Origin: Acidovorax facilis
GTDB lineage: Bacteria; Pseudomonadota; Gammaproteobacteria; Burkholderiales; Burkholderiaceae_C
Length of the DNA: 64,000 nt
NCBI RefSeq assembly: GCF_023913775.1
Contig: NZ_JAMXAX010000015.1
Location: forward strand, 1 to 64,000
Direction: 5' to 3'
Below are positions 22,456 through 34,477 of this stretch, one piece after another; the first letter of the stretch is position 1, and each line of letters starts with the position of its first letter. A program made the translations under genes and the position numbers. Under the pieces are notes generated by a model. It was not told where the DNA came from. It saw only the letters and a program-made list of their open reading frames with translations, and did no database searches.

Positions 22456-22484
22456 GCGGCCTCGGCTTGGCCGCGCGGCTTTTT
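22456..22484 (+). terminator. Terminator after the Lrp gene
   Basis: The hairpin GCGGCC-TCGGCTT-GGCCGC is followed by GCGGCTTTTT. It lies 9 bases after the Lrp stop and abuts the stop of the convergent HD gene. Confidence 0.6.
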
Positions 22485-23067
22485 ACGCTGCCACCGGGGC
22501 GAGTTCAGCCGCAGCGGCAACAGCTGCCGGAACTGGCACCAGACGCTGCACCAGCGCCATGTAGTAGCCCAGCGGGGGCGTGACCAACCCCGGCACCTTG
22601 GCATGGTCGTCATAGCGGCGCAGGCGGATGGCCTCCTGCGCAAAGGGCTGGGCCGCAAACTGCATCGCCTCTTTGGGCGTGAAGGGCCCGCCCTGCAGCA
22701 CCAGGCTGTGCTGCGATGCGGGCGACAGTGTCTCCCAGTACCCCGGCTCCATGGTGCACAGGTAGCGCTTGGCATCCACATGCAGGCGGATGGGCTCCAG
22801 CACCGCGTCGGGCAGCAGGCCCCGCAAGAACGGGATGGCCATGTACTGGTGCAGGTCGTCCTGCTCGGCCGTGTCGCCCCCGGGCGCCAGCAGGTGGCCC
22901 AGGTCGTGCAGCAGGGCAGCGACGACAGTGGCCGGGGTTTCACCCGATTTTTCGGCCCACTGCGCGCACTGCAGTGCGTGCTCGAGCTGGCTGACCGCCT
23001 CGCGGCCGTACTGGTTCACGCCCCGGGTAGCGAGCAGGTGGGCAATGTCTTCAAGGCTCAATGCCAT
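22483..23067 (-). CDS. Phosphonate-operon HD-domain protein (PhnZ-like mixed-valent diiron oxygenase family)
   Basis: 194 aa HD-domain protein of the family associated with phosphonate degradation operons. Metal-ligand candidates are visible: H30 (LEH), H54-D55 and H58 (LLHDLGH), H73 (DDLHQY), H96 (LHVDAKRYL) and D153/D154. Y20 in NQYGREAV resembles the gating tyrosine region of PhnZ, which oxidatively cleaves 2-amino-1-hydroxyethylphosphonate. No PhnY dioxygenase, the usual partner, is nearby. It is the last gene of the phnCDE transcription unit, separated from phnE by a 112-base repeat element. Confidence 0.8.
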   Translation of the reverse strand: MALSLEDIAHLLATRGVNQYGREAVSQLEHALQCAQWAEKSGETPATVVAALLHDLGHLLAPGGDTAEQDDLHQYMAIPFLRGLLPDAVLEPIRLHVDAKRYLCTMEPGYWETLSPASQHSLVLQGGPFTPKEAMQFAAQPFAQEAIRLRRYDDHAKVPGLVTPPLGYYMALVQRLVPVPAAVAAAAELAPVAA

Positions 23068-23087
23068 GGAATCTTCCTAAAAACTTG

Positions 23088-23199
23088 GAGCGGCTAACAG
23101 AACTCAGCGAAGCGGTTCTGGCTAGGCGCTGCGTCGCAGGCAGTACGAGTAGTACGACAAGACGCGACAACAACGCCAGAAGAGTTTTGTTCGCCGCTC
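23088..23199. repeat. 112-base element with terminal inverted repeats (MITE/REP-like)
   Basis: The ends GAGCGGCTAACAGAACT (23088-23104) and AGTTTTGTTCGCCGCTC (23183-23199) are inverted repeats matching at 15 of 17 positions. A nested TTCTGG...CCAGAA pair and smaller palindromes (TGCGTCGCA, GTACGAGTAGTAC) lie inside. It has no open frame. It fills the space between phnE and the HD gene and ends exactly at the phnE stop codon. Confidence 0.6.
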
Positions 23200-24006
23200 T
23201 CAGACCAAGGCCTTGCGGATGCGGGCCGACACCAGGTCGATGACACTCACCGTGACCACGATGATGAGCATGACCGCGCAGGTCTCGGCGTACTGGAAGC
23301 CCCGAATGATTTCCCACAGCACCACCCCAATGCCCCCGGCGCCCACCATGCCCACCACCGAGGCCGAACGCACGTTGGCCTCGAAGCGGTACAGCGTGTA
23401 CGAGATCCACAGCGGCATGACCTGCGGAATCACGCCATAGATGATTTCGTGCAGTGCGCTCGCACCGGTGGAGCGAATGCCTTCCACGGGCTGCGGGTCA
23501 ATCGCCTCCACGGCTTCGGAGAACAGCTTGGCCAGGGTGCCCGAGGTGTGGATCCACAGCGCCAGCACGCCCGCAAAAGGCCCCAGACCCACGGCCACCA
23601 CAAACAGCATGGCAAACACCATTTCGTTGATGGCGCGGAACGCGTCCAGCACGCGACGCACCGGCTGGTAGACCCACCAGGGCACGATGTTGGACGAGGC
23701 CAGCAGTGCCAGCGGCACGGCGGTGACCACCGCCAGCGCCGTGCCCCACAGCGCGATCTGCAGCGTGACCAGCATCTCCTGCACATAGATCTGCCACTGC
23801 GCAAAATTGGGCGGAAAGAACTCCGCCGCATAGCTGACCATGTTGCCCGAGTCGTTCCACAGATCGAGCGGGCGCATGTCGGCGCCCTTCCAGGACGCCG
23901 CCAGCAACACCAGCAGGATGCCCCACGACAGGTACCAGGCCAGGCTGCGCTTGGGCGACGAGGTGCTGGCCAGTGTGGCCAGCGAGGGATTCAAAGCAGA
24001 GGACAT
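23200..24006 (-). CDS. phnE: Phosphonate ABC transporter permease PhnE
   Basis: 268 aa permease with about six membrane segments. The EAA-loop motif [21 protein letters not shown] lies near residue 175 and contacts the ATPase Phn[17 protein letters not shown] near 220 is typical of PhnE. It works with PhnC and PhnD to import phosphonates. It follows phnD by 34 bases in the same direction. Its stop codon abuts the 112-base repeat element. Confidence 0.92.
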
Positions 24007-24040: not shown

Positions 24041-24988
24041 TTACTTCAACGACGCCAGCTGCTGGTCGATCTCGGCCAGGCGGGTCTTCTTATCGGCATC
24101 GGCCAGCGTGGCGTCGGCCTCGATCTTGTTGCGCTTGCCGAAGAGGTCTAGCTGGCGGATGGGGGTGAGCTGGGCATTGGTCGATGGTTTGAAGCCCGAG
24201 AGCTTGGAGATCTTCATCACGATCTCCTTCTCGCGCGCATCGGTCTTGGCGTAGTTGTAGAAGAAGTCGCGGATCTTGGTCTTGGTGGCCTCGGGCAAGT
24301 CCTTGCGCATCACCAGCGGGTCCAGCGGAATCAGGGGCGAGGTCCAGACGATCTTGATGTCCTTGAACTTCTCGGGCTGGCGCTCCTTGATCTTTTCCAG
24401 GTTCTCGCTGTTGTTGGTGGCCACATCCACCTGCTTGTTGGCCACGGCCAGCGCGTTGGTCTCGTGGTTGGCACTGCGCGTGATCTTGAAGTGCGTCTTC
24501 GCGTCGATCTTGTTCTGTGCAAAGGCGTAGTAGCCGGGCACCAGGAAGCCCGAGGTGGAGTTGGGGTCGCCGTTGCCAAAGCTCAGCGACTTGCCGTTCT
24601 TGAGCACGTCATCCAGCGTGGCCAGGGGGCTGTCTTTGTGCACGATGAGGTGCGAGTAGTAGCCCTGCGTGCCGTCTGCGTTCACCATCTGCGCAAAGAC
24701 TTCGCCGTTGGCGCGGTCCACGGCTTCCATGGCCGACTTGTTGCCCAGCCAGGCCACCTGCATCTTGTTGAACCGCATGGCTTCGATGAGGCCTGCGTAG
24801 TCGGATGCAAAGAAGGCATTGATCTTCAGACCGGTCTGCTTGGCCATGTCGTCCAGCAGGGGCTGCCAGTCGGCCTTGAGGTTTTGCGAGGCCTCGGTCG
24901 AGATCATGCCGAAGTTGATGTCCTGGGCCAACGCGCCCGTGGTCAAACCCAGCCCGATCGTCAGGGCGGCACACAGTTTCTTGAACAT
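24041..24988 (-). CDS. phnD: Phosphonate-binding periplasmic protein PhnD
   Basis: 315 aa with a Sec signal peptide (MFKKLCAALTIGLGLTTGALA). The mature chain begins QDINFGMISTEASQNLKADWQPLL and contains the PhnD signatures FFASDYAGLIEAMRFNKMQVAW and GNGDPNSTSGFLVPGYY, whose serines and threonines hold the phosphonate group. It delivers ligand to PhnCE. GGAG lies upstream of the ATG; phnC ends 45 bases before. Confidence 0.92.
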   Translation of the reverse strand: MFKKLCAALTIGLGLTTGALAQDINFGMISTEASQNLKADWQPLLDDMAKQTGLKINAFFASDYAGLIEAMRFNKMQVAWLGNKSAMEAVDRANGEVFAQMVNADGTQGYYSHLIVHKDSPLATLDDVLKNGKSLSFGNGDPNSTSGFLVPGYYAFAQNKIDAKTHFKITRSANHETNALAVANKQVDVATNNSENLEKIKERQPEKFKDIKIVWTSPLIPLDPLVMRKDLPEATKTKIRDFFYNYAKTDAREKEIVMKISKLSGFKPSTNAQLTPIRQLDLFGKRNKIEADATLADADKKTRLAEIDQQLASLK

Positions 24989-25033: not shown

Positions 25034-25894
25034 TCAGGCGGCCTGGACCATGGCGGGCGCCCACTGCGGGACGGGTGTTGGGGCATGCACGGGTGCTGGT
25101 GGGGCACCCGCTGCATCCGACAGAATTTCGTCGGCGTGCACGCCATACAGGCTGCGCAGCAGTGCGGGCGTGAGGGCCGCCGAGGGGCCGTCGTACACCA
25201 CCTGGCCGTGGTGCAAGGCCACCACGCGGGGGCAGTATTTGATGGCCACATCCACCTGGTGCAGCGACACGATGACGGTGCAGCGGTCCTCGCGGTTGAT
25301 GCGGGCCAGGATGTCCATGACCTTGCGCGAGGACTCCGGGTCGAGCGAGGCGATGGGCTCGTCGGCCAGCACCACCTTGGCGCCCTGCACCAGCGTGCGG
25401 GCAATGGCCGCGCGCTGCTGCTGCCCGCCAGACAGGGTGGAAGCACGTTGTGCATGGCATTCGGCAATGCCCACGCGGTGGAGCGCTTCCAGCGCCAGTG
25501 CGCGCTCCTGCGGCTTGAACATGCGCAGCCAGCCGCGCCACCAGGGCGTGCGGTGCAGCAGGCCCACCAGCACGTTCATCAACACCGGCAAGCGGTCCAC
25601 CAGGTTGAACTGCTGAAACACAAAGCCCACCTGCGAACGCACCTTGCGGATGTCGCTGTGGATGCGTCCGCCCTGCTGCACGCAGCGGCCATCGACCTCG
25701 ATCAGCGAATCGCTGGCCGCATCGGCCACCACCAGACCCGCCACATGGCGCAGCAAGGTGGACTTGCCCGAGCCCGAAGCACCGATCAGCGCCACCATCT
25801 CGCCGCGCTGCACGGTGAGGTTGATGTCGCGCAGGGCATGTTTGCCGTTGGCGAAGTGCTTGTTCAGTTGGTGGATGTGCAGTGCGGCAGTCAT
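25034..25894 (-). CDS. phnC: Phosphonate ABC transporter ATP-binding protein PhnC
   Basis: 286 aa. Walker A GASGSGKS at 38-45, signature LSGGQQQR at 154-161 and Walker B VVLADEP at 174-180 are intact. The C-terminal 30 residues are a Pro/Ala-rich extension ([16 protein letters not shown]) absent from most PhnC proteins. It is the first gene of the phnCDE-HD unit; AGGAGG precedes the ATG and a PhnF-type operator lies 24 bases upstream of the start, so the uptake genes appear to have their own promoter. Confidence 0.93.
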
Positions 25895-25917
25895 GGCAGC
25901 CTCCTGAGGGGGTTAAG

Positions 25918-25929
25918 TCGTCTAGACAA
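25918..25929. promoter_or_regulatory. Second PhnF-type operator, upstream of phnC
   Basis: TCGTCTAGACAA matches the phnG/phnF intergenic operator TTGTATAGACAA at 10 of 12 positions and contains a perfect GTCTAGAC palindrome. It lies in the only sizeable gap (103 bases) of the phn gene run, just upstream of phnC. Confidence 0.7.
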
Positions 25930-25997
25930 CCGAAGTGTGGTTGCCACGCGTGACAGTGCTTTGACAGTTGGGAGAAGTTTGGATGTCAGAGAGCGGT

Positions 25998-27152
25998 CTA
26001 CAGCACCCGCTGCCCTTCGCGCCACACGCCACGCACCACGGCCTGGCGGCCCCCATCGGGCAGCTCGGCCATGTGCACCTGCACCAGGTCCGCACGCAGG
26101 CCCGGAGCCAGCGCGCCCCGGTCGGTCATGCCTGCCGCCTTGGCGGGGTTGCGGGTGACGGTAGCCACAGCCTGTGGCAGGGGCAGGATGTCGTCCTGCA
26201 CCAGCCGCATCACCGCGCTCAGCAGGCTGCCGGGCACATAGTCGGACGAGAGGATGTCCAGCAGCCCCCGTCGCGCCAGGTCGGCAGCCGCCACATTGCC
26301 CGAGTGCGATCCGCCACGCACCACGTTGGGCCCGCCCATCACCGTGAGCAGGCCCCGCTCGTGTGCCGCCTGGGCCGCAGCCAGCGTGGTGGGAAACTCC
26401 GACATCGCCGCCCCTTCGGCATGGGCCTGCTCCACATGGGCCACCGTGGTGTCGTCGTGGCTGGCCAGCGAGATGCCGTGCGTGCGGCAGTAATCTACAA
26501 AGTACGCACGGTGCGGCTCGGCGTACTGCGCCTGCAGCGTGGCCGCGTGCGCCACCTGGCGCTCGAACTTCTCGGCGCTCCAGCCCTTTTTACCGGTGTA
26601 GTAGGTGCGCGCCTGCTCGATGTTCTCCCACTGGCGCTGGCCAGGGGTGTGGTCCATCAGCGAGATCAGCGACAGGCGCGGGTGGCCGCGGAACGGCTCG
26701 AACAGGTCGATGGTGTTGGGTGCGGGCAGCTCGCAGCGCACATGCAGGTGGTGGTCGGCACGCAGCAGGTTGCGTTTGGTGCAGGTGTCGATGGTGTCGA
26801 GCACGCGGTTCCAGGCGCTGCCGCGCAGGCTGTCCACATCAGCCTCGCCCACACCCAGCGCATCCAGCACCGTGGTGATGCCTGCGGCGGCAATCTCGGC
26901 ATCGTGCGCCAGCAGTGCGGGCATCTCGGCCCATTGCACTTTGGGGCGAGGCATGAGGTGACGCTCGAAGTTGTCGGTGTGAATTTCGACCAGCCCGGGC
27001 AGCAGGTAGTCGCCCCCCAGGTCGATGCCTTGCAGGGCCGCAGTACCCCCACTATCCAGCGACGCAATGCGCCCGCCATCCACCTGCAAGCTGCCGTGCA
27101 CCACTTCGCCCGGTAGCACCATGCGAGCGTTCTTGAACACGGTCGCAGTCAT
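25998..27152 (-). CDS. phnM: Alpha-D-ribose 1-methylphosphonate 5-triphosphate diphosphatase PhnM
   Basis: 384 aa amidohydrolase-superfamily enzyme that removes diphosphate from the 5-triphosphate product of PhnGHL/PhnI before C-P cleavage. Metal-binding EIHTDNFERH lies near residue 58; ASHDDTTVAH near 240 and the LSSDYVPGSLLSAV segment near 308 are PhnM hallmarks. The ATG overlaps the phnL stop as ATGA. It is the last gene of the phnG-M run. Confidence 0.93.
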   Translation of the reverse strand: MTATVFKNARMVLPGEVVHGSLQVDGGRIASLDSGGTAALQGIDLGGDYLLPGLVEIHTDNFERHLMPRPKVQWAEMPALLAHDAEIAAAGITTVLDALGVGEADVDSLRGSAWNRVLDTIDTCTKRNLLRADHHLHVRCELPAPNTIDLFEPFRGHPRLSLISLMDHTPGQRQWENIEQARTYYTGKKGWSAEKFERQVAHAATLQAQYAEPHRAYFVDYCRTHGISLASHDDTTVAHVEQAHAEGAAMSEFPTTLAAAQAAHERGLLTVMGGPNVVRGGSHSGNVAAADLARRGLLDILSSDYVPGSLLSAVMRLVQDDILPLPQAVATVTRNPAKAAGMTDRGALAPGLRADLVQVHMAELPDGGRQAVVRGVWREGQRVL

Positions 27153-27880
27153 GCCGATGCTCCCCGGAAGTCACCCACGTTCACGCGGCGCGTGGCCACT
27201 GCCGCACCCACCTGCGCATCGTGAAAGATGCCCACCAGGGCGGCGCCGCGCGCCACGGCCTCGCGGATCATGGCAATCACGGTCTCGGTGTTGGCCGCGT
27301 CGAGCGATGCGGTGGGCTCGTCCAGCAGCAACAGCGGCTTGGGCTTGATCATGTTGCGGGCGATGTTGATGCGCTGCTGCTCTCCTCCGGAGAACGTGGC
27401 GGGTGGCAGATGCCACAGCCGCTCCGGGATGCGCAGACGGGTCAGCCACTGGCGGGCGGCCTCACGCGCTGCCTCGATGCCCGCAGGGTCGTCGCCCGCG
27501 TCTTCGGCCAGCGGCTCGGCCACCACATCCAGCGCCGACACGCGCGGGATGACCCGAAGGAACTGGCTCACATAACCCACGGTGTCGCGCCGCAGCTGCA
27601 CCAGCGCACGCGATGTGGCCTGCGTCACGTCCACCACGGCGCCGTCGGCCGAGCGCACGGTGATGCTGCCCGCGTTGGCGCGGTAGTTGGCGTAGATCAT
27701 CTTGAGCAGCGTGCTCTTGCCCATGCCCGAGGGGCCGTCGAGCACCACACATTCACCGGGCCGTACATCCAGGTTCACCTGGGCCAGCACGGGCAGTTCG
27801 ATGCCGTTCTGGTGGTGCAGGGTAAAGCGCTTGGCCACCCCTTGCATCTGGAGAATGGGCGCAATGGAAGGCTGGTTCAT
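27149..27880 (-). CDS. phnL: C-P lyase complex ABC-type protein PhnL
   Basis: 243 aa. Start MNQPSIAPILQMQGVAKRF at 27880; Walker A GPSGMGKS near 50, FSGGEQQRINIARNMIKPK near 155 and LLLDEPTASLD near 180. PhnL belongs to the C-P lyase machinery rather than to transport and is needed with PhnG, H and I for attachment of the phosphonate to ribose of ATP. Coupled by 4-base ATGA overlaps to phnK upstream and phnM downstream. Confidence 0.92.
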   Translation of the reverse strand: MNQPSIAPILQMQGVAKRFTLHHQNGIELPVLAQVNLDVRPGECVVLDGPSGMGKSTLLKMIYANYRANAGSITVRSADGAVVDVTQATSRALVQLRRDTVGYVSQFLRVIPRVSALDVVAEPLAEDAGDDPAGIEAAREAARQWLTRLRIPERLWHLPPATFSGGEQQRINIARNMIKPKPLLLLDEPTASLDAANTETVIAMIREAVARGAALVGIFHDAQVGAAVATRRVNVGDFRGASA

Positions 27881-28665
27881 GGCTGCAGTACCGAAGAAAC
27901 GAGGAGCTGGGTGTAGGGGTGTTGCGGGTCGTCGAGCACCTGGTCGGTCAGGCCCGCTTCGACCACGCGGCCGCGCTGCATGACCACCATGCGGTGCGCC
28001 AGCAAGCGCGCCACGGCCAGGTCGTGCGTGACGACAATGGCCGCCAACTGCATTTGCCGCGTGAGCTGCCGCAGCAGGTCCAGCAGGCGCGCCTGCACCG
28101 ATACATCGAGGCCCGAGGTGGGTTCGTCCATGAACACCAGGCGGGGCTGGGTGACGAGGTTGCGCGCAATCTGCAGGCGCTGACGCATGCCGCCCGAAAA
28201 CGTGCGCGGTGCATCGTCGATGCGCGCCGCGTCGATCTCCACACGCTGCAGCCATTCCGTGGCCGTGGCGCGCAGGCGGCCGTAGTGGCGCTCGCCCAGC
28301 CCCATCAGGCGCTCGCCCACGTTGGCACCGGCCGACACATCCATGCGCAGGCCGTCCGCCGCGTTCTGGTGCACAAAGCCCCAGTCGGTACGGGCCAGCA
28401 GGCGCTGCTGCGCTTCGGTCATGGCATAGATGTCCTGCAGCTCGCCGCTGCGCTGGCGGAACTGCACCGTGCCTTCGTCCGGGGCGCTGCGTGCTGCAAT
28501 GGCGTTGAGCAGCGTGGACTTGCCGGAGCCCGACTCGCCCACCACGGCCAGCACCTCGCCAGGCCACAGGTCAAAGGACGCGCCTTGCAGCGCCACACGG
28601 TCGCCATAGCGCTTGCTGACGTTGCGCACGCTCAGCAGCGGCGCAGAAGGTTCGGGGTGATTCAT
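27877..28665 (-). CDS. phnK: C-P lyase complex ABC-type protein PhnK
   Basis: 262 aa. Walker A GESGSGKS near 42, the signature FSGGMRQRLQIARNL near 153 and Walker B LVFMDEPTSGLD near 173 are intact. In E. coli PhnK docks on PhnJ of the PhnGHIJ core and couples ATP hydrolysis to the lyase reaction. Overlaps the GNAT gene upstream and phnL downstream by 4 bases each. Confidence 0.92.
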   Translation of the reverse strand: MNHPEPSAPLLSVRNVSKRYGDRVALQGASFDLWPGEVLAVVGESGSGKSTLLNAIAARSAPDEGTVQFRQRSGELQDIYAMTEAQQRLLARTDWGFVHQNAADGLRMDVSAGANVGERLMGLGERHYGRLRATATEWLQRVEIDAARIDDAPRTFSGGMRQRLQIARNLVTQPRLVFMDEPTSGLDVSVQARLLDLLRQLTRQMQLAAIVVTHDLAVARLLAHRMVVMQRGRVVEAGLTDQVLDDPQHPYTQLLVSSVLQP

Positions 28666-29123
28666 GTGAGGGTCTCGACAACAAAGCTCAGGCCATGCTG
28701 CGCAAAGCCCAGGGATTCATAGAAGGCATGCGCGCCCTTGCGGCGGGCGTTGGACGAGAGCGCGAGCTTGTAGCAGCCCGCGTCGCGCGCCTGCTGCATG
28801 GCGTGGGCCATCATCTGGCGGCCAATGCCTCGTCCCTGCTGGTCCTGTGCCACCACCACGTCTTCCACGATGGCCGAGGGCGTGCCCCGGTGCGCCAGGT
28901 TGTGCATGACGAGCAGCGCATAGGTGCCCACCACGGCGCCGTGCTGCGCGGGGTCGCAGGCCACCCACAGGCGATAGCTGGGGTAGCGGGCGAACTGGGT
29001 CCACACGGCCTGCGCTTCTTCCAGGGTCAGCACGTCGGCCGGACTGTTTTCAATGGCGGCATAAAGCGCCAGCACGCTCTCCAGGTCGGCCTGCCGGGCT
29101 TCGCGGATGTGCACAGTGCTCAT
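28662..29123 (-). CDS. GNAT-family acetyltransferase embedded in the C-P lyase operon (PhnO-like role)
   Basis: 153 aa from the ATG at 29123 (MSTVHIREARQADLESVLAL). The acetyl-CoA-binding loop QDQQGRGIGRQMMAHAM near residue 95 and the C-terminal KGAHAFYESLGF are typical GNAT. It sits between phnJ and phnK with ATGA overlaps on both sides, so it is translated with the lyase core. E. coli phnO, an aminoalkylphosphonate N-acetyltransferase that prepares or detoxifies substrates, has a different position, so orthology is not certain; a similar role is inferred. Confidence 0.78.
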   Translation of the reverse strand: MSTVHIREARQADLESVLALYAAIENSPADVLTLEEAQAVWTQFARYPSYRLWVACDPAQHGAVVGTYALLVMHNLAHRGTPSAIVEDVVVAQDQQGRGIGRQMMAHAMQQARDAGCYKLALSSNARRKGAHAFYESLGFAQHGLSFVVETLT

Positions 29124-30040
29124 GCGGCGCCGCCTTCCACCTGCGCAGTTTCGGCCTGCCGCGCCTGGCGCTCCTGGCAGTAATCCGAGTCCGAACACAC
29201 ATGCATGCGCCCGCCCTGGTCGTCGGTGATGACCTCGTCCAGAAAGCTGTCGGTGGCGCCACACAGCGCGCAAGCAGCATCCCAGCGCTGCACCTCGAAC
29301 GGGTGGTCCTCAAAACCCAGGCTCTCCACCGGCGTATAGGGCGGCACGGCATAGATGCGCTTTTCGCGGCCCGCGCCAAACAGCTGCAGCGCGGGGTTCA
29401 TGTGCATCTTGGGGTTGTCGAACTTGGGGATGGGCGACGGCGCCATCACATAGCGGCCGTTGACCAGCACGGGGTAGTCGTAGGTGGTGGCAATGTGGCC
29501 GTAGCGCGCGATGTCTTCGTAGAGCTTGACGTGCATGAGCCCGTACTCGGCCAGGCCATGCAGAGTGCGCGTTTCGGTCTCCCGCGGCTCCAGGCGCTGC
29601 ATGGGCTCGGGCACTGGCACTTGGTAGACGATGACCTGGCCTTCGGCCAGCGGTGTCTCGGGGATGCGGTGGCGCGTCTGGATCAGCGTGGCCTCGCGCG
29701 TGCGGGTGGTGGTCGCCACGGCCGTGGTGCGCTCGAAGAAGCGGCGGATGTTGACCGCGTTGACCGTGTCGTCCGATCCCTGGTCGATGACCTTGAGGCA
29801 GTCCTGCGGGCCGATGATGGAAGCGGTGACCTGGATGCCGCCCGTGCCCCAGCCATAGGGCAGCGGCATTTCGCGGGAGCCAAACGGCACCTGGTAGCCG
29901 GGGATGGCCACGGCCTTGAGGATGGCGCGGCGGATCATGCGCTTGGTGCGCTCGTCCAGGTAGGCAAAGTTGAAGTGGCCGTCCACCGGTGCGGCGTCGG
30001 CGGGCAAGCCCATCACGGCGGGTTCCATGGGCGCGTTCAT
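29120..30040 (-). CDS. phnJ: Alpha-D-ribose 1-methylphosphonate 5-phosphate C-P lyase PhnJ
   Basis: 306 aa radical SAM enzyme that breaks the carbon-phosphorus bond, giving alkane and ribose 1,2-cyclic phosphate 5-phosphate. The four conserved cysteines are C257, C260, C282 and C288, in the same spacing (3, 22, 6) as E. coli C241/244/266/272, with the last acting as thiyl-radical site. The GTGGIQVTASIIGPQDCLKV region is conserved. The extra length is an N-terminal extension of about 15 residues. Overlaps phnI and the GNAT gene by ATGA. Confidence 0.95.
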   Translation of the reverse strand: MNAPMEPAVMGLPADAAPVDGHFNFAYLDERTKRMIRRAILKAVAIPGYQVPFGSREMPLPYGWGTGGIQVTASIIGPQDCLKVIDQGSDDTVNAVNIRRFFERTTAVATTTRTREATLIQTRHRIPETPLAEGQVIVYQVPVPEPMQRLEPRETETRTLHGLAEYGLMHVKLYEDIARYGHIATTYDYPVLVNGRYVMAPSPIPKFDNPKMHMNPALQLFGAGREKRIYAVPPYTPVESLGFEDHPFEVQRWDAACALCGATDSFLDEVITDDQGGRMHVCSDSDYCQERQARQAETAQVEGGAA

Positions 30041-31140
30041 GCGGCATCCTTCTCGGCGGGGGGGGTGGGGTGGGCGGCAGCGGCGCGCATCTTGCGCACC
30101 AGCTCCAACTCGGACTGAAAGTCCACGTAGTGCGGCAACTTCAGGTGCTGCACGAAGCCAGACGCCTCCAGGCTGTCGCTGTGGCCCAGCACAAACTCCT
30201 GCATCTGCGCGGGCGACTCCACCGGTTCACCCAGCTCATCGGCACGCAGGGCTCGGTCCACCAGGCTCATCGCCATGGCCTTGCGCTCGCTGTGGCCAAA
30301 CGCCAGGCCGTAGCCGCGCGTGAACTGCGGGGGTTGGCTCTTGCTGCCTGCAAACTGGTTCACCATCTCGCACTCGGTGATTTCGATGTCGCCGATGTCG
30401 ATGGCAAAGCCCAGTTCTTCGGGCACGATCTCCACCGCCACTGTGCCCAGGCGCACCTCACCCACAAACGGGTGCGAGTGCGAGTAGCCGCGCTGCGTGG
30501 AATACGCCATGGCGAGCAGGAAGCCCTCGTCGCCACGTGCCAGGTTTTGCAGGCGTGTAGCGCGGTTGGCGGGGAAGCGCAGTGGCTCGCGGGTCAAGTC
30601 CGTGGGCGCAGGGTCGCCAGGGGGCACGGGGCGGGTCTCGATCAAGCCTTCCTGGTTGAGCAGGTCCACTACGCGCGGCGTGGGGCCGGGTGGCACCGCA
30701 GCTGCCGCAGCGGCAAGTGGCGTCACCGTGCCTTCGGCCAGCAGCTTGAAGTCGAGCAGGCGCTGCGTGTAGTCGTAGGTGGTGCCTAGCACCTGGCCGC
30801 CGGGCAGATCCTTGAAGGTGGCGGAGATGCGCCGGTCCAGTGCCATGCGGCTGGTGTCCAGCGGGCAGGTGGTGCCCAGGCGCGGCAGCGTGGCACGGTA
30901 GGCGCGCAGCAAAAAGATGGCTTCCACCAGGTCGCCCGCCGCCTGCTTAATGGCAAGGGCCGCAAGCTCGGGGTCGTACACCGATCCCTCGGTCATGACG
31001 CGGTCCACCGCCAGCTTGAGCTGCTGGCGGATCTGCGCTACCGAGAGTTCAGGCTGCGAGACATCGCCCCGGCGCTGGCGGGCCAACAACTGGTAGCTGT
31101 TGAGAATGGCGGCTTCTCCGCCTTTGACGGCTACGTACAT
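30037..31140 (-). CDS. phnI: C-P lyase core subunit PhnI (nucleosidase)
   Basis: 367 aa. The start MYVAVKGGEAAILNSYQLLA at 31140 is the conserved PhnI N-terminus and has AGGAGG eight bases upstream, so the longer open frame to 31269 is not used. PhnI acts with PhnG, PhnH and PhnL to exchange adenine of ATP for phosphonate at ribose C1. GYSHSHPFVGEVRLG near 245 and NQFAGSKSQPPQFTRGYGLAFGH near 295 are conserved. Two bases separate it from phnH; it overlaps phnJ by 4. Confidence 0.94.
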   Translation of the reverse strand: MYVAVKGGEAAILNSYQLLARQRRGDVSQPELSVAQIRQQLKLAVDRVMTEGSVYDPELAALAIKQAAGDLVEAIFLLRAYRATLPRLGTTCPLDTSRMALDRRISATFKDLPGGQVLGTTYDYTQRLLDFKLLAEGTVTPLAAAAAAVPPGPTPRVVDLLNQEGLIETRPVPPGDPAPTDLTREPLRFPANRATRLQNLARGDEGFLLAMAYSTQRGYSHSHPFVGEVRLGTVAVEIVPEELGFAIDIGDIEITECEMVNQFAGSKSQPPQFTRGYGLAFGHSERKAMAMSLVDRALRADELGEPVESPAQMQEFVLGHSDSLEASGFVQHLKLPHYVDFQSELELVRKMRAAAAHPTPPAEKDAA

Positions 31141-31142
31141 GC

Positions 31143-31784
31143 TCAGGCCTCCTGAAGGGCAGTGGCACCGCGCGTTGCCCGCGTGGTGCGTGGCAGACCC
31201 ACGATGTGGTCCGCAGTGGCCAGCAGCAGATCCACACCGCATGGAAACACCCCATGGTTGGCCGCCCACTGGGCCTCGAATTCGTCAGGCAGGCCATCCA
31301 CCTGCAAGGCCGCCACCTCCTGGATGCCGGGGCCGCGCAAGTGCCATGCATCACTCGCGTCCGCCGTGGTGGCGGCGGCACGCGATACATCGACCACGCA
31401 AGTCGCCGATTGATCGGGGTAGATGTCGGTTCCCTGGGCCAAGCTGCCCAGCGCGGGCAGTGCGTCGCCCTGCGCCACCCACACAAAACGGGCTTGAGCA
31501 GCGTCGACCACCACAGTGCAGCCCGTGTGAAAGCGCAACCAGGCACCGGCATCACTGGCTGCCAGCCTGGGCGAGAGCCACAGCGTGCAGTCACTGTCTA
31601 GCAGTGCCAGCAGCACGGCAGCCGATGCGGCATGCCCCACAGACGGAGCCTGCGCGTCATGTTCTACCGCCACCGTGCGGCCGGGGTGCGATAGCGCCTG
31701 CAGCACGGCGCGGAACACCGCCTGGCTGCCAAAGGCTTCGTTCGAGAATCCGGCACCCAGCGATGCCAAGGGGGTCGTGCTCAT
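31143..31784 (-). CDS. phnH: C-P lyase core subunit PhnH
   Basis: 213 aa subunit of the PhnGHIJ complex. GFSNEAFGSQAVFRAVLQALSHPGR at residues 12-36 is the family signature, and HLRGPGIQ near 147 and NHGVFPCGVDLLLA near 175 are conserved. It has no known catalytic residue set of its own. Overlaps phnG by ATGA. Confidence 0.93.
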   Translation of the reverse strand: MSTTPLASLGAGFSNEAFGSQAVFRAVLQALSHPGRTVAVEHDAQAPSVGHAASAAVLLALLDSDCTLWLSPRLAASDAGAWLRFHTGCTVVVDAAQARFVWVAQGDALPALGSLAQGTDIYPDQSATCVVDVSRAAATTADASDAWHLRGPGIQEVAALQVDGLPDEFEAQWAANHGVFPCGVDLLLATADHIVGLPRTTRATRGATALQEA

Positions 31785-32293
31785 TCGGTGTCCTCGTCGT
31801 TGTCGGAGCCGCTCTCGCGCGCCACGGTGAAAAAGTCCACCTTGGTGCTGGCGGCCCGCGCCTGGCGCTCGGCCTGCGTATTGCGCAGGTGGTTGCGGAT
31901 GGGTTCGAGCAGTTGTGCGTCCAGCACCGGTTGCTGAACAGGGTCTTGCAGCAGCGCATCGGCCAAGGCCGCCAGCTGCACCTGGCGGTGCGAACGGCCC
32001 AGCACGTAGGCCACGCCCACGGTGGCCTCAGAAGCGTCCGATGCGTCGGCCACGCGCAGCGCGCAGCGGGTGACGGTGACCTCACCCAGGTTGAAGCGCT
32101 CGCCCGTGCCACCGGCGCGGCCCTGCACCATCATCAGCCCGGTCTCTGGTGCACGCAGCCAGCGCGCGGGGCGCGTGGCGTGCTCGTGCAACGCAGATTC
32201 GAGCAGCCCCAGCGGCGCCCGGGCCAGCAGCGCCATCCACTGCGCGCGGCCCAGGGGGCGGCCCGGCCCCGGGTTGTCAAAGGCTTGAAACAT
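31781..32293 (-). CDS. phnG: C-P lyase core subunit PhnG
   Basis: 170 aa first gene of the C-P lyase operon. RAQWMALLARAPLGLLE near 16-32, PETGLMMVQGRAGGTGERFNLGEVTVTRC near 49-77 and AYVLGRSHRQVQLAALADAL near 95-114 are PhnG motifs. The start at 32293 lies 20 bases from the PhnF operator at 32313-32324. The acidic C-terminus (SGSDNDEDTE) is longer than usual. Confidence 0.93.
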   Translation of the reverse strand: MFQAFDNPGPGRPLGRAQWMALLARAPLGLLESALHEHATRPARWLRAPETGLMMVQGRAGGTGERFNLGEVTVTRCALRVADASDASEATVGVAYVLGRSHRQVQLAALADALLQDPVQQPVLDAQLLEPIRNHLRNTQAERQARAASTKVDFFTVARESGSDNDEDTE

Positions 32294-32312
32294 GGAAGTG
32301 GTACCCTGAAAG

Positions 32313-32324
32313 TTGTATAGACAA
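32313..32324. promoter_or_regulatory. PhnF-type GntR/HutC operator between phnG and phnF
   Basis: TTGTATAGACAA has the TTGT/ACAA arms and TATA-like core expected of HutC-subfamily operators. It lies in the 75-base divergent region; read on the minus strand it contains TATACA, which could be the -10 of the phnG promoter, so binding would block transcription. Confidence 0.75.
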
Positions 32325-32368
32325 ATTGAACAACTGGCGCCAGCTTAAAGAGCGCGCATGTAGGTTTC

Positions 32369-33151
32369 ATGACAGCCAGCACCACCTCTCTCACGACCCC
32401 GCTACAGGTCCCGCAAGCACCACCACTGCGCCCTGCGCGCGACAGCTTCTGGACGCGCATAGCCGCCGAGCTGGCCGAGGCCATCGGCAGCGGCGTTTAT
32501 CCGCCGGGCCAGCGACTGCCCTCGGAACACGCGCTGGCCGAGCAGTTCGGCGTGAACCGCCACACCATCCGCCGTTCGCTCGCCAGCCTGTGCAGCCAGG
32601 GGCTGGTGCGCATCACGCAGGGCAGCGGCACCTATGTTGAAGACTTTGCGGTGGATCTGGTGCTGGGCAAGCGCACGCGCCACCAGCAGGGCTTGGCACA
32701 GGCCGGTCTGCGCGGCAGCCTGTTGGTGCTGCAGGCCCAGACCACGCGCGCCACGGCGGCGCTGGCGAAGGCGCTGCAAGTGCCCGCGCGCAGCCCGCTG
32801 CTGGCGCTGCGCGTGCGGGGCGACGCCGAGGGCCAGCCCCTGCACATCAGCGAGCGCTACTTTCCCCTGCCCCGCTTCGAAAACCTCGCGGCTGTGGTGC
32901 GCGAAACGGGCTCCATCACCGCAGGCTTCACCGCCCACGGGGTGGCCGACTACACGCGCCGCGAAAGCCGCATCACCGCCGAGCTGCCGAGCGCCGAAGT
33001 GGCCGCCCAGTTGCGCCAGCCCACCTCACGCCCCGTGCTGCAGGTAGAGAGCCTGAACGTGGACCTGGCAGGCACGCCCATCGAATGGGCGCGCGCCTGG
33101 TTTGCGGGCGACCGCGTGAAACTGACCATTGACCACGATGAACACGCCTGA
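32369..33151 (+). CDS. phnF: Phosphonate operon GntR-family regulator PhnF
   Basis: 260 aa. The GntR winged helix spans about residues 28-90 (LAEAIGSGVYPPGQRLPSEHALAEQFGVNRHTIRR, then GSGTYVEDF), followed by a UTRA effector-binding domain (YFPLPRFENLAAVVRETGS). Divergent from the C-P lyase operon and likely to repress it until phosphonate or a derived sugar phosphate binds. It heads a plus-strand unit with DUF1045, phnN, arsC and an MFS gene. Overlaps the DUF1045 gene by 14 bases. Confidence 0.92.
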   Translation: MTASTTSLTTPLQVPQAPPLRPARDSFWTRIAAELAEAIGSGVYPPGQRLPSEHALAEQFGVNRHTIRRSLASLCSQGLVRITQGSGTYVEDFAVDLVLGKRTRHQQGLAQAGLRGSLLVLQAQTTRATAALAKALQVPARSPLLALRVRGDAEGQPLHISERYFPLPRFENLAAVVRETGSITAGFTAHGVADYTRRESRITAELPSAEVAAQLRQPTSRPVLQVESLNVDLAGTPIEWARAWFAGDRVKLTIDHDEHA

Positions 33152-33866
33152 AATGCCACCCACCCACCACCGCTATGCGGTCTATTTCGCACCCAACCCG
33201 GGCAGCCTGGGCTGGCTCGCCGGCAGCCACTGGCTGGGGCGCTGCGCCGCGCTGCTGCAGCCGCTGCAGCAGCTCGCCATCGACGGCGTGGCGGCGGACA
33301 ACCTGCACCGCCTGACCGCAGCACCCCGCCGCTACGGCTGGCACGCCACGCTCAAGGCGCCGTTTGCGCTGGCGCCCGGCACCGACTGGATCACGCTGCA
33401 CCAGGCCGTGCAGTCCGTGGCGCGCGGTCTGCAACCCTTTGTGCTGCCGCCCCTGCAGGTGCAGCGCATCGACGACTTTCTGGCGCTGGTGCCCCCGGCG
33501 TTGCACCCCGCCAATGCGCAGATCCAGGAGACCGCCGCCACCTGCGTGACGGCGCTGCAGCCTTTGGCCGCACCCTTGTCCGACGCCGACCTCGCCCGGC
33601 GCCGCTCGGCGGGGCTCACTGCCCGGCAGGATGCGCTGCTGCAGCAATGGGGCTACCCGTTTGTGTTGGACGAGTTCCGCTTTCACCTGTCGCTCACCGG
33701 CAGCTTGGCGCAGGTGGACCCGCCAACACAGGCCTTGGTGTTCGAGGCCGCGCAGGAGTTCTTCTCGGACCTGCCCATCCTGAAGTTCAACAGCCTGGCC
33801 TTGTTCGCAGAGCCCACACCCGGCGCCGACTTTGTGCTGCTGGATCACCTGGAGATGGGCGCATGA
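33138..33866 (+). CDS. DUF1045 / 2H-type phosphoesterase of phosphonate operons
   Basis: 242 aa protein of the family repeatedly found in phn clusters. Two H-x-T/S-x motifs are visible, HATLK at 69-73 and HLSLT at 183-187, as in 2H cyclic phosphodiesterases such as RNA ligase-like 2',3'-CPDases. The ATG at 33138 is chosen over the TTG at 33129. The cluster has no phnP, the enzyme that opens ribose 1,2-cyclic phosphate 5-phosphate; this protein could substitute, which is inference. ATGA overlap with phnN downstream. Confidence 0.82.
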   Translation: MNTPEMPPTHHRYAVYFAPNPGSLGWLAGSHWLGRCAALLQPLQQLAIDGVAADNLHRLTAAPRRYGWHATLKAPFALAPGTDWITLHQAVQSVARGLQPFVLPPLQVQRIDDFLALVPPALHPANAQIQETAATCVTALQPLAAPLSDADLARRRSAGLTARQDALLQQWGYPFVLDEFRFHLSLTGSLAQVDPPTQALVFEAAQEFFSDLPILKFNSLALFAEPTPGADFVLLDHLEMGA

Positions 33867-34477
33867 CCGCGGGCCGGCTGGTCTACTGCATGGGCCCCTC
33901 GGGCGCGGGCAAGGACAGCCTGCTGGACTGGCTGCGCGCCCACCTGCCCCAGCCCTGCCCCGTGCACTGGGCGCAGCGCACCATCAGCCGTGCCGCGACG
34001 TCTGCCGGCGAAGTGCATGAAAGCGTTTCGCCCCAAACGTTTGTTGCGCTGTGCAGCGACCACGCATTTGCCCTGCACTGGCAGGCCAACGGCCTGGGCT
34101 ACGGCGTGCGGCATGCGCAACTGGCGCCGCTGGCGCAGGGCCACTGGGTGCTGCTCAATGGCTCGCGCGCCTACCTGCCCGAGGCCCTGGCACGCTTCCC
34201 GGACCTGGTGGCTGTCCACATCACTGCCAGCCCGCAGGTGCTGCGCGAACGTCTGCTGGCGCGGGGCCGCGAGACGCGCGAAGAGGTGGAGGCCCGCGTG
34301 CAGCGCGCGCTGGCGTACAGCCCGCCGCCGGGCGCGGCCAGCCTGGAGGTGCACAACGACGGAGCGCTGGGCGATGCGGGCCTGCGGCTGCTGATTGCTT
34401 TGGAAAATTTACCGGGTTGGCCCCAGCGCAGTGGCAAACTTTCGCCCATTGTTTCCGTACTTTCCAGCACGCCATGA
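33863..34477 (+). CDS. phnN: Ribose 1,5-bisphosphokinase PhnN
   Basis: 204 aa kinase that phosphorylates ribose 1,5-bisphosphate to PRPP, returning the sugar of the C-P lyase pathway to metabolism. P-loop GPSGAGKDS at 11-19, RTISRAATSAGEVHESV near 39-55 (guanylate-kinase-like substrate region) and LLARGRETREEVEARVQRA near 130 are seen. The C-terminal tail (LENLPGWPQRSGKLSPIVS) is unusual and longer than in E. coli PhnN. It overlaps both neighbours by ATGA. Confidence 0.9.
   Translation: MTAGRLVYCMGPSGAGKDSLLDWLRAHLPQPCPVHWAQRTISRAATSAGEVHESVSPQTFVALCSDHAFALHWQANGLGYGVRHAQLAPLAQGHWVLLNGSRAYLPEALARFPDLVAVHITASPQVLRERLLARGRETREEVEARVQRALAYSPPPGAASLEVHNDGALGDAGLRLLIALENLPGWPQRSGKLSPIVSVLSSTP

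Follow-up and report, generated by a model that had tools for sequence, protein, structure and literature searches.

How is a phosphonate (phn) gene cluster controlled when its carbon-phosphorus (C-P) lyase genes and its uptake genes lie in two units, and does the second unit have a promoter of its own? The question is raised by a 64-kb stretch of Acidovorax facilis contig NZ_JAMXAX010000015.1 (assembly GCF_023913775.1; genome 6.42 Mb), here called the window, in which the lyase genes precede the uptake genes and phnF, for a GntR/HutC-family regulator, is divergent from the first lyase gene, phnG. Our analysis indicates that phnG and phnC, the first uptake gene, very probably have promoters of the same design: a Pho box, 10 bp, a -10 element, and then an operator for PhnF.

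Predicted PhnF operators at phnG and phnC

An earlier note on this DNA had drawn attention to two 12-mers agreeing at 10 of 12 positions, TTGTATAGACAA at 32313-32324, within the 75-bp gap between phnG and phnF, and TCGTCTAGACAA at 25918-25929, within the 103-bp gap between phnM and phnC. Coordinates and identity were exact when re-checked. This likeness alone proves nothing, because the best ungapped 12-mer match was at least 10 in 71 of 300 shuffled gap pairs. The note had also held that only these two gaps could accommodate promoters, which is incorrect, since the gap between phnE and the Phn-HD gene measures 132 bp; that gap (23068-23199) contains short repeats and lacks the PhnF core.

The consensus of the HutC subfamily is given as GTMTAKAC (PMC4494728), which is its own reverse complement. 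In the window it occurs at the two predicted operators only, O1 before phnG and O2 before phnC (Table 1), whose cores both fit it, and it appeared in both shuffled gaps in none of 20000 trials. Two longer patterns, TYGTVTAGACAA and the 15-mer TTGTMTAKACRACTT, both composed after the two sites had been seen, have two perfect matches each in the genome, all of them at O1 and O2. With one or two mismatches allowed, neither pattern is in genome-wide excess over the backward control (for the 15-mer with up to two mismatches, 8 matches and 11 in the control).

The 15-mer follows the repressor gene within the genus. PhnF was detected at E<=1e-45 in 35 of 47 genus genomes, and the perfect 15-mer is found in those same 35 and in none of the other 12; it never exceeds two copies per genome, and the backward pattern is absent from all 47. 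In a set of 80 named loci and the window, from which phnC pieces below 200 bits were excluded, 15 of the 81 loci have no phnC of at least 200 bits (some end at contig ends) and one has no phnG. The core before phnG is free of mismatches in 75 of 80 loci, window included, and has one mismatch in the remaining five. Before phnC it is perfect in 60 of 66 loci and has one mismatch in four, two in L156 and three in L120, so that the scan of related genomes which the earlier note had named as a check finds the motif in 64 of 66 when one core mismatch is allowed. Two other sites were considered as targets and rejected, one near position 443 in L118, which lies inside an open reading frame (ORF) judged by eye to be SMP-30-like, and one near 494 in L119.

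One genome of the genus (G595) has no PhnF at the above threshold and no 15-mer. Its cluster (L264) consists of the DUF1045 gene, phnG to phnM, and phnC, D and E, with phnF missing. Its operator core fits at only six of eight positions before phnC, and the best core match before phnG is five of eight. The DUF1045 frame of this cluster (L264:280-1047, minus strand) begins at what appears to be the former phnF start region.

Operator type also varies with the repressor. A tree of 56 PhnF proteins was built without regard to operators, from 16 of the 81 loci (window included), L032-L048 and L265-L290, the phnF-less L276, L280 and L286 dropping out. It contains a second clade of 14 members (support 1.0), 38-43% identical to the PhnF of the window and with the recognition helix HTLRQ, which in the clade of the window is mostly HTIRR. 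All 14 second-clade loci carry a different palindrome, GTCRTCTAGAYGAC, at phnG with no or one mismatch, and the same sequence has at least three mismatches in all 40 other tree members with a scanned phnG region. At phnC, which could be judged in three of the 14, the palindrome has one mismatch in L284 and L289 and three in L039; in L040, L041 and L046 phnC is too close to the end of the stretch for judgment. L286, without phnF, is also without the second-clade palindrome, and its genome (G199) is outside the 18 matches at E<=1e-30. GTMTAKAC alone cannot separate the clades, because 10 of the 14 second-clade loci also fit it with no or one mismatch. Beside their own palindrome, the second-clade loci L043 and L289 have a perfect GTCTATAC core, located 19 and 32 nt upstream of phnG. 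The eight loci that form a third PhnF group (L042, L044, L045, L277-L279, L281 and L282) match neither palindrome, and four of them (L042, L277, L279 and L282) share GATTTAGACATC at or just within phnG.

These comparisons bear on whether another GntR/HutC regulator of the genome, rather than PhnF, binds both sites. The genome does encode further GntR-type proteins, including three at E<1e-11, and the HutC subfamily in general has this core as its consensus (PMC4494728). Nevertheless, the next-best relative of PhnF in the genome is only 28% identical, the 15-mer tracks PhnF over the 47 genomes, operator type tracks PhnF clade, and both operators have decayed where phnF is missing. We consider binding by such a regulator extremely improbable.

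Predicted Pho-type promoters upstream of both operators

The E. coli Pho box has the letters CTGTCAT. In PMC1906773 the box is printed as CTGTACTA, and the PhoB repeats are described as followed after 10 bp by a TAN3T/A -10 element. Both promoters predicted here follow this arrangement, with Pho repeats 11 bp apart and 10 bp before the -10, except that the phnC -10 is NAN3T and not TAN3T. Between the -10 and the operator core there are 6 bases at phnC and 19 at phnG. Within the window, only these two places combine a Pho box of 9/12 or better with a NAN3T -10 at a distance of 10 bp, and CTGTCAAAGCACTGTCAC, before phnC, is the sole perfect CTGTCA-N5-CTGTCA in the genome.

Across relatives, the Pho box match is highest at one constant distance from the phnC operator, where it averages 7.7/12 over 68 loci (mean over offsets, 3.05); weaker side peaks in the 68-locus average occur at 11-bp steps. 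Conservation in the phnC -10, CACACT, is mainly at positions 2, 4 and 6. (The offset and conservation scans at phnC omit L037-L048, L120 and L156, and the conservation scan at phnG omits L037-L048.) At phnG, the search required a box of 7/12 or better and, 7 to 13 bp further on, TAN3T. The combination was found in 81 of 85 loci, every time at spacing 10, and in 30 of 4250 shuffles, 7 of these at spacing 10. L264, which lacks phnF, retains an 11/12 Pho box before phnC at unchanged spacing, and before phnG a Pho-like element followed after 10 bp by TAAGCT.

A Pho box had at one stage been assigned to phnC only. The region then scanned ended at the phnF start; the full region shows CTGTCATGAAACCTACAT, 10 bp and TAAGCT, and this assignment was dropped. 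A related explanation is that PhnF acts at both units and PhoB at phnC alone, the phnG element being the ribosome-binding and start region of phnF. The phnG box has a match of just 9/12 and shares sequence with the start codon of phnF, because of which its conservation could be partly coding or ribosome binding; it had also seemed absent from the shorter scan. On the other hand, the box and TAN3T stand at the exact spacing in 81 of 85 loci, a combination that arose in only 7 of 4250 shuffles; TGTCAT is conserved in 81 of the 85 loci, even though ACA accounts for just 11 of 214 threonine codons in the phn genes of the window; and relatives with distant PhnF proteins have best matches of 9-11/12 before phnG, that of L285 overlapping the palindrome itself. 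We therefore judge PhoB action at phnC alone to be unlikely.

PhoB itself is present in the genome (TIGR02154, 329.3 bits, cut-off 296.2). As genome controls, pstS is preceded by a Pho-like box of 10/12 at 58 nt and ppk by one of 11/12 at 51 nt; a second PstS-like gene has no box of at least 10/12 within its 3.9-kb locus. Several further 11/12 matches in the genome have no evident phosphate gene nearby. Activation by PhoB and repression by PhnF are thus the two predicted inputs that the promoters appear to share, a feature that the earlier note had overlooked.

A probable separate phnC promoter and the proposed control

Although 0.7-1.6 kb separates phnM from phnC in seven loci (L033, L124, L135, L152, L153, L160 and L162), the operator is next to phnC in all of them; in L160 and L162 its core carries one mismatch. 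In L284 and L289 the palindrome of the second clade is present at phnC even though this gene is separate from the lyase genes. In L149, where no phnC follows phnM, the start region from which an amidohydrolase gene and a second phosphonate-type phnD-phnC set diverge contains a core match. That transporter set, with the amidohydrolase gene divergent (L149:13942-17121), also has a 10/12 Pho-like box near the start region. In L095 and L097 an inverted-repeat element of ~105 nt, resembling a small mobile element, sits between the operator and the phnC start; the distance from operator to phnC is also longer in L236, L238 and L239.

Both sites probably behave as PhnF operators, and phnC probably has its own PhnF-controlled promoter, because the 15-mer co-occurs with PhnF, the operator stays with phnC, both operators have decayed in G595, where phnF is missing, and operator type is specific to the PhnF clade. 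In the alternative view, only O1 works: the phnC site is accidental or a relic, and phnC-D-E are transcribed by read-through from the phnG promoter. Such read-through is possible, since the phnM/phnC gap of the window is only 103 bp long and a scan of it found no intrinsic terminator; in addition, L120 (Xenophilus sp. L33) keeps PhnF and the phnG operator, and its phnC operator is unrecognisable. A functionless phnC site is nonetheless difficult to reconcile with a core retained in nearly all loci, mostly at a fixed distance to the Pho box and -10, with its staying beside phnC despite intervening sequence, or with its decay in the genome lacking phnF. We regard read-through alone as highly improbable, and retain two promoters of the same design as the preferred explanation.

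Besides the degenerate phnG box, the loss in L120 and the missing terminator, several observations weigh against that explanation. A sigma-70 scan of both gaps found no promoter, which is expected for activator-dependent promoters and yet gives no support; the sigma-70 and terminator scans, having found nothing, were discarded as evidence. In L156, the locus with two core mismatches at phnC, Phn-HD precedes phnC. L034 and L141 have no phnC box at the usual offset and have an 11/12 box further upstream, and four of the 85 loci (L130, L151, L162 and L169) miss the phnG promoter grammar, for which the shuffles ignore relatedness. Pho boxes with at most one mismatch number 19 genome-wide, against 7 in the backward control. 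The co-occurrence of PhnF and operator within the genus is partly trivial, because just 3 of the 12 PhnF-less genomes match phnC at E<=1e-40 (G595 with an orthologue of 88% identity, two with paralogues of 43-45%, nine unmatched), and the phnF-less comparison within the genus is one genome and one event.

With regard to the claims of the earlier note, a PhnF-controlled promoter for phnC gains comparative support from the relatives and from the decay in L264, and the Pho-type promoter upstream of the operator has to be added to it. The division of the regulon into a lyase and an uptake unit is borne out to the extent that a promoter-like region precedes each; the units are not split by regulator, because a Pho-type promoter precedes each operator and the same two inputs are predicted for both.

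We infer PhnF and PhoB binding, the start sites, the ligand and the control logic from sequence. At both promoters the Pho box would replace the -35 element and be bound by PhoB, the activator of the phosphate starvation response, and PhnF would bind the palindromic operator downstream of each -10. Because the predicted start of phnC is covered by the operator core, bound PhnF would keep RNA polymerase from binding or initiating there. The phnG operator is centred ~17 bp beyond the predicted start, where PhnF may act as a roadblock. O1 may also autoregulate phnF, because it lies in the gap between phnG and phnF. Full expression of both units would require that phosphate is scarce, with PhoB active, and that a phosphonate or derivative releases PhnF. 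Because the Pho box is 12/12 at phnC and degenerate at phnG, uptake is predicted to respond more strongly to starvation. A more speculative and rather improbable addition is that PhoB on the phnG box would both activate phnG and obstruct phnF transcription, in which case starvation would lower the repressor just as both units are switched on and the divergent promoter would be a feed-forward switch.

Cluster layout and known systems

ORFs and family models place phnG, H, I, J, a GNAT gene, phnK, L, M, phnC, D, E and Phn-HD in this order on the minus strand, and phnF, the DUF1045 gene and phnN divergently on the plus strand (Table 1). By the family models the C-P lyase set from phnG to phnM is complete. 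The PhnF protein has a GntR helix-turn-helix domain (PF00392) and a UTRA domain (PF07702), both over cut-off, and its closest named relatives are Acidovorax. The statement of the earlier note that the uptake genes are downstream of the lyase genes, the reverse of E. coli, agrees with this layout.

Table 1. Predicted control elements and genes of the phn cluster, in positions of the window
Feature	Position	Strand	Sequence or family model
Pho box, predicted phnC promoter	25950..25967	-	CTGTCAAAGCACTGTCAC, 12/12 to CTGTCA-N5-CTGTCA
Predicted -10 of phnC	25934..25939	-	CACACT; 10 bp past Pho box; conserved spacing
Predicted PhnF operator O2, upstream of phnC	25915..25929	-	TTGTCTAGACGACTT; core GTCTAGAC 25920-25927
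Degenerate Pho box, predicted phnG promoter	32358..32375	-	CTGTCATGAAACCTACAT, 9/12; overlaps phnF start codon
Predicted -10 of phnG	32342..32347	-	TAAGCT (TAN3T); exactly 10 bp past Pho box
Predicted PhnF operator O1, phnG/phnF gap	32310..32324	-	TTGTCTATACAACTT; core GTCTATAC 32315-32322
phnF, GntR/HutC-family regulator, divergent from phnG	32369..33151	+	TIGR02325, 205.1 bits, cut-off 156.8
DUF1045 phosphonate-associated gene, 3' of phnF	33129..33866	+	TIGR03223 under cut-off; PF06299
phnN	33863..34477	+	TIGR02322
phnG, first gene of lyase unit	31781..32293	-	TIGR03293
phnH	31143..31784	-	TIGR03292
phnI	30037..31149	-	PF05861
phnJ, C-P lyase	29120..30040	-	PF06007
GNAT acetyltransferase gene, phnJ/phnK interval	28662..29123	-	weak PhnO match NF007530, 52 bits, cut-off 142
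phnK	27877..28665	-	TIGR02323
phnL	27149..27880	-	TIGR02324
phnM, final gene of lyase unit	25998..27152	-	NF011984, TIGR02318
phnC, first gene of uptake unit	25034..25894	-	TIGR02315, 302.2 bits, cut-off 266.1
phnD	24041..24988	-	TIGR03431
phnE	23200..24006	-	TIGR01097
Phn-HD oxygenase gene, 3' of phnE	22483..23067	-	TIGR03276

The E. coli phnC-P operon, a member of the Pho regulon, has the same set of uptake and C-P lyase genes and a Pho box before phnC (PMC7866108, PMC10574752). It has a single promoter and the uptake genes come first, whereas in the window phnC-E follow the lyase genes, phnF points away from phnG, and both units have a predicted Pho-type promoter with a PhnF operator of its own; a single operon of the E. 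coli type, with phnC first and one promoter, is not what the window contains. In Mycobacterium smegmatis, a GntR-family PhnF divergent from its target, phnDCE, is described as binding two sequences, both in one bidirectional promoter region, and the target is a phosphate transporter (PMC7866108). The A. facilis sites are instead 6.4 kb apart and belong to two units of a C-P lyase cluster. NagR of Bacillus subtilis is likewise a HutC repressor whose dre sites are GntR-type palindromes and which blocks uptake and breakdown genes, with other flanks and other effectors, amino sugar phosphates (PMC4333415).

In the bipartite phn cluster of Nodularia spumigena, uptake and lyase genes also act as distinct units: phnJ is reported to need a phosphonate and phnD to rise without phosphate (PMC5955973). 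The passages of that report at hand define no operators, and cyanobacterial Pho boxes are given as different in sequence (PMC1906773). Several of the relatives compared here are Variovorax. In Variovorax xiamenensis on methylphosphonate, phnC-E are reported as highly up and phnG-M as also up, and phosphate addition lowers phnJ (PMC12226003; the passages at hand contain no promoter or operator analysis). The predicted two-input logic fits both the Nodularia (PMC5955973) and the Variovorax xiamenensis (PMC12226003) reports. No title or abstract opening among the papers listed in literature searches describes the operators reported here, and we make no claim of first description.

The analysis provides candidate operator sequences for two PhnF clades, together with a repressor-less genome in which both operators have decayed. 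Two inputs at both units could explain why the lyase genes respond to phosphate as well as to substrate in other bacteria (PMC12226003, PMC5955973). The predicted design offers a concrete, testable rule for phosphonate use, and hence for methane release from methylphosphonate, in common freshwater and soil bacteria.

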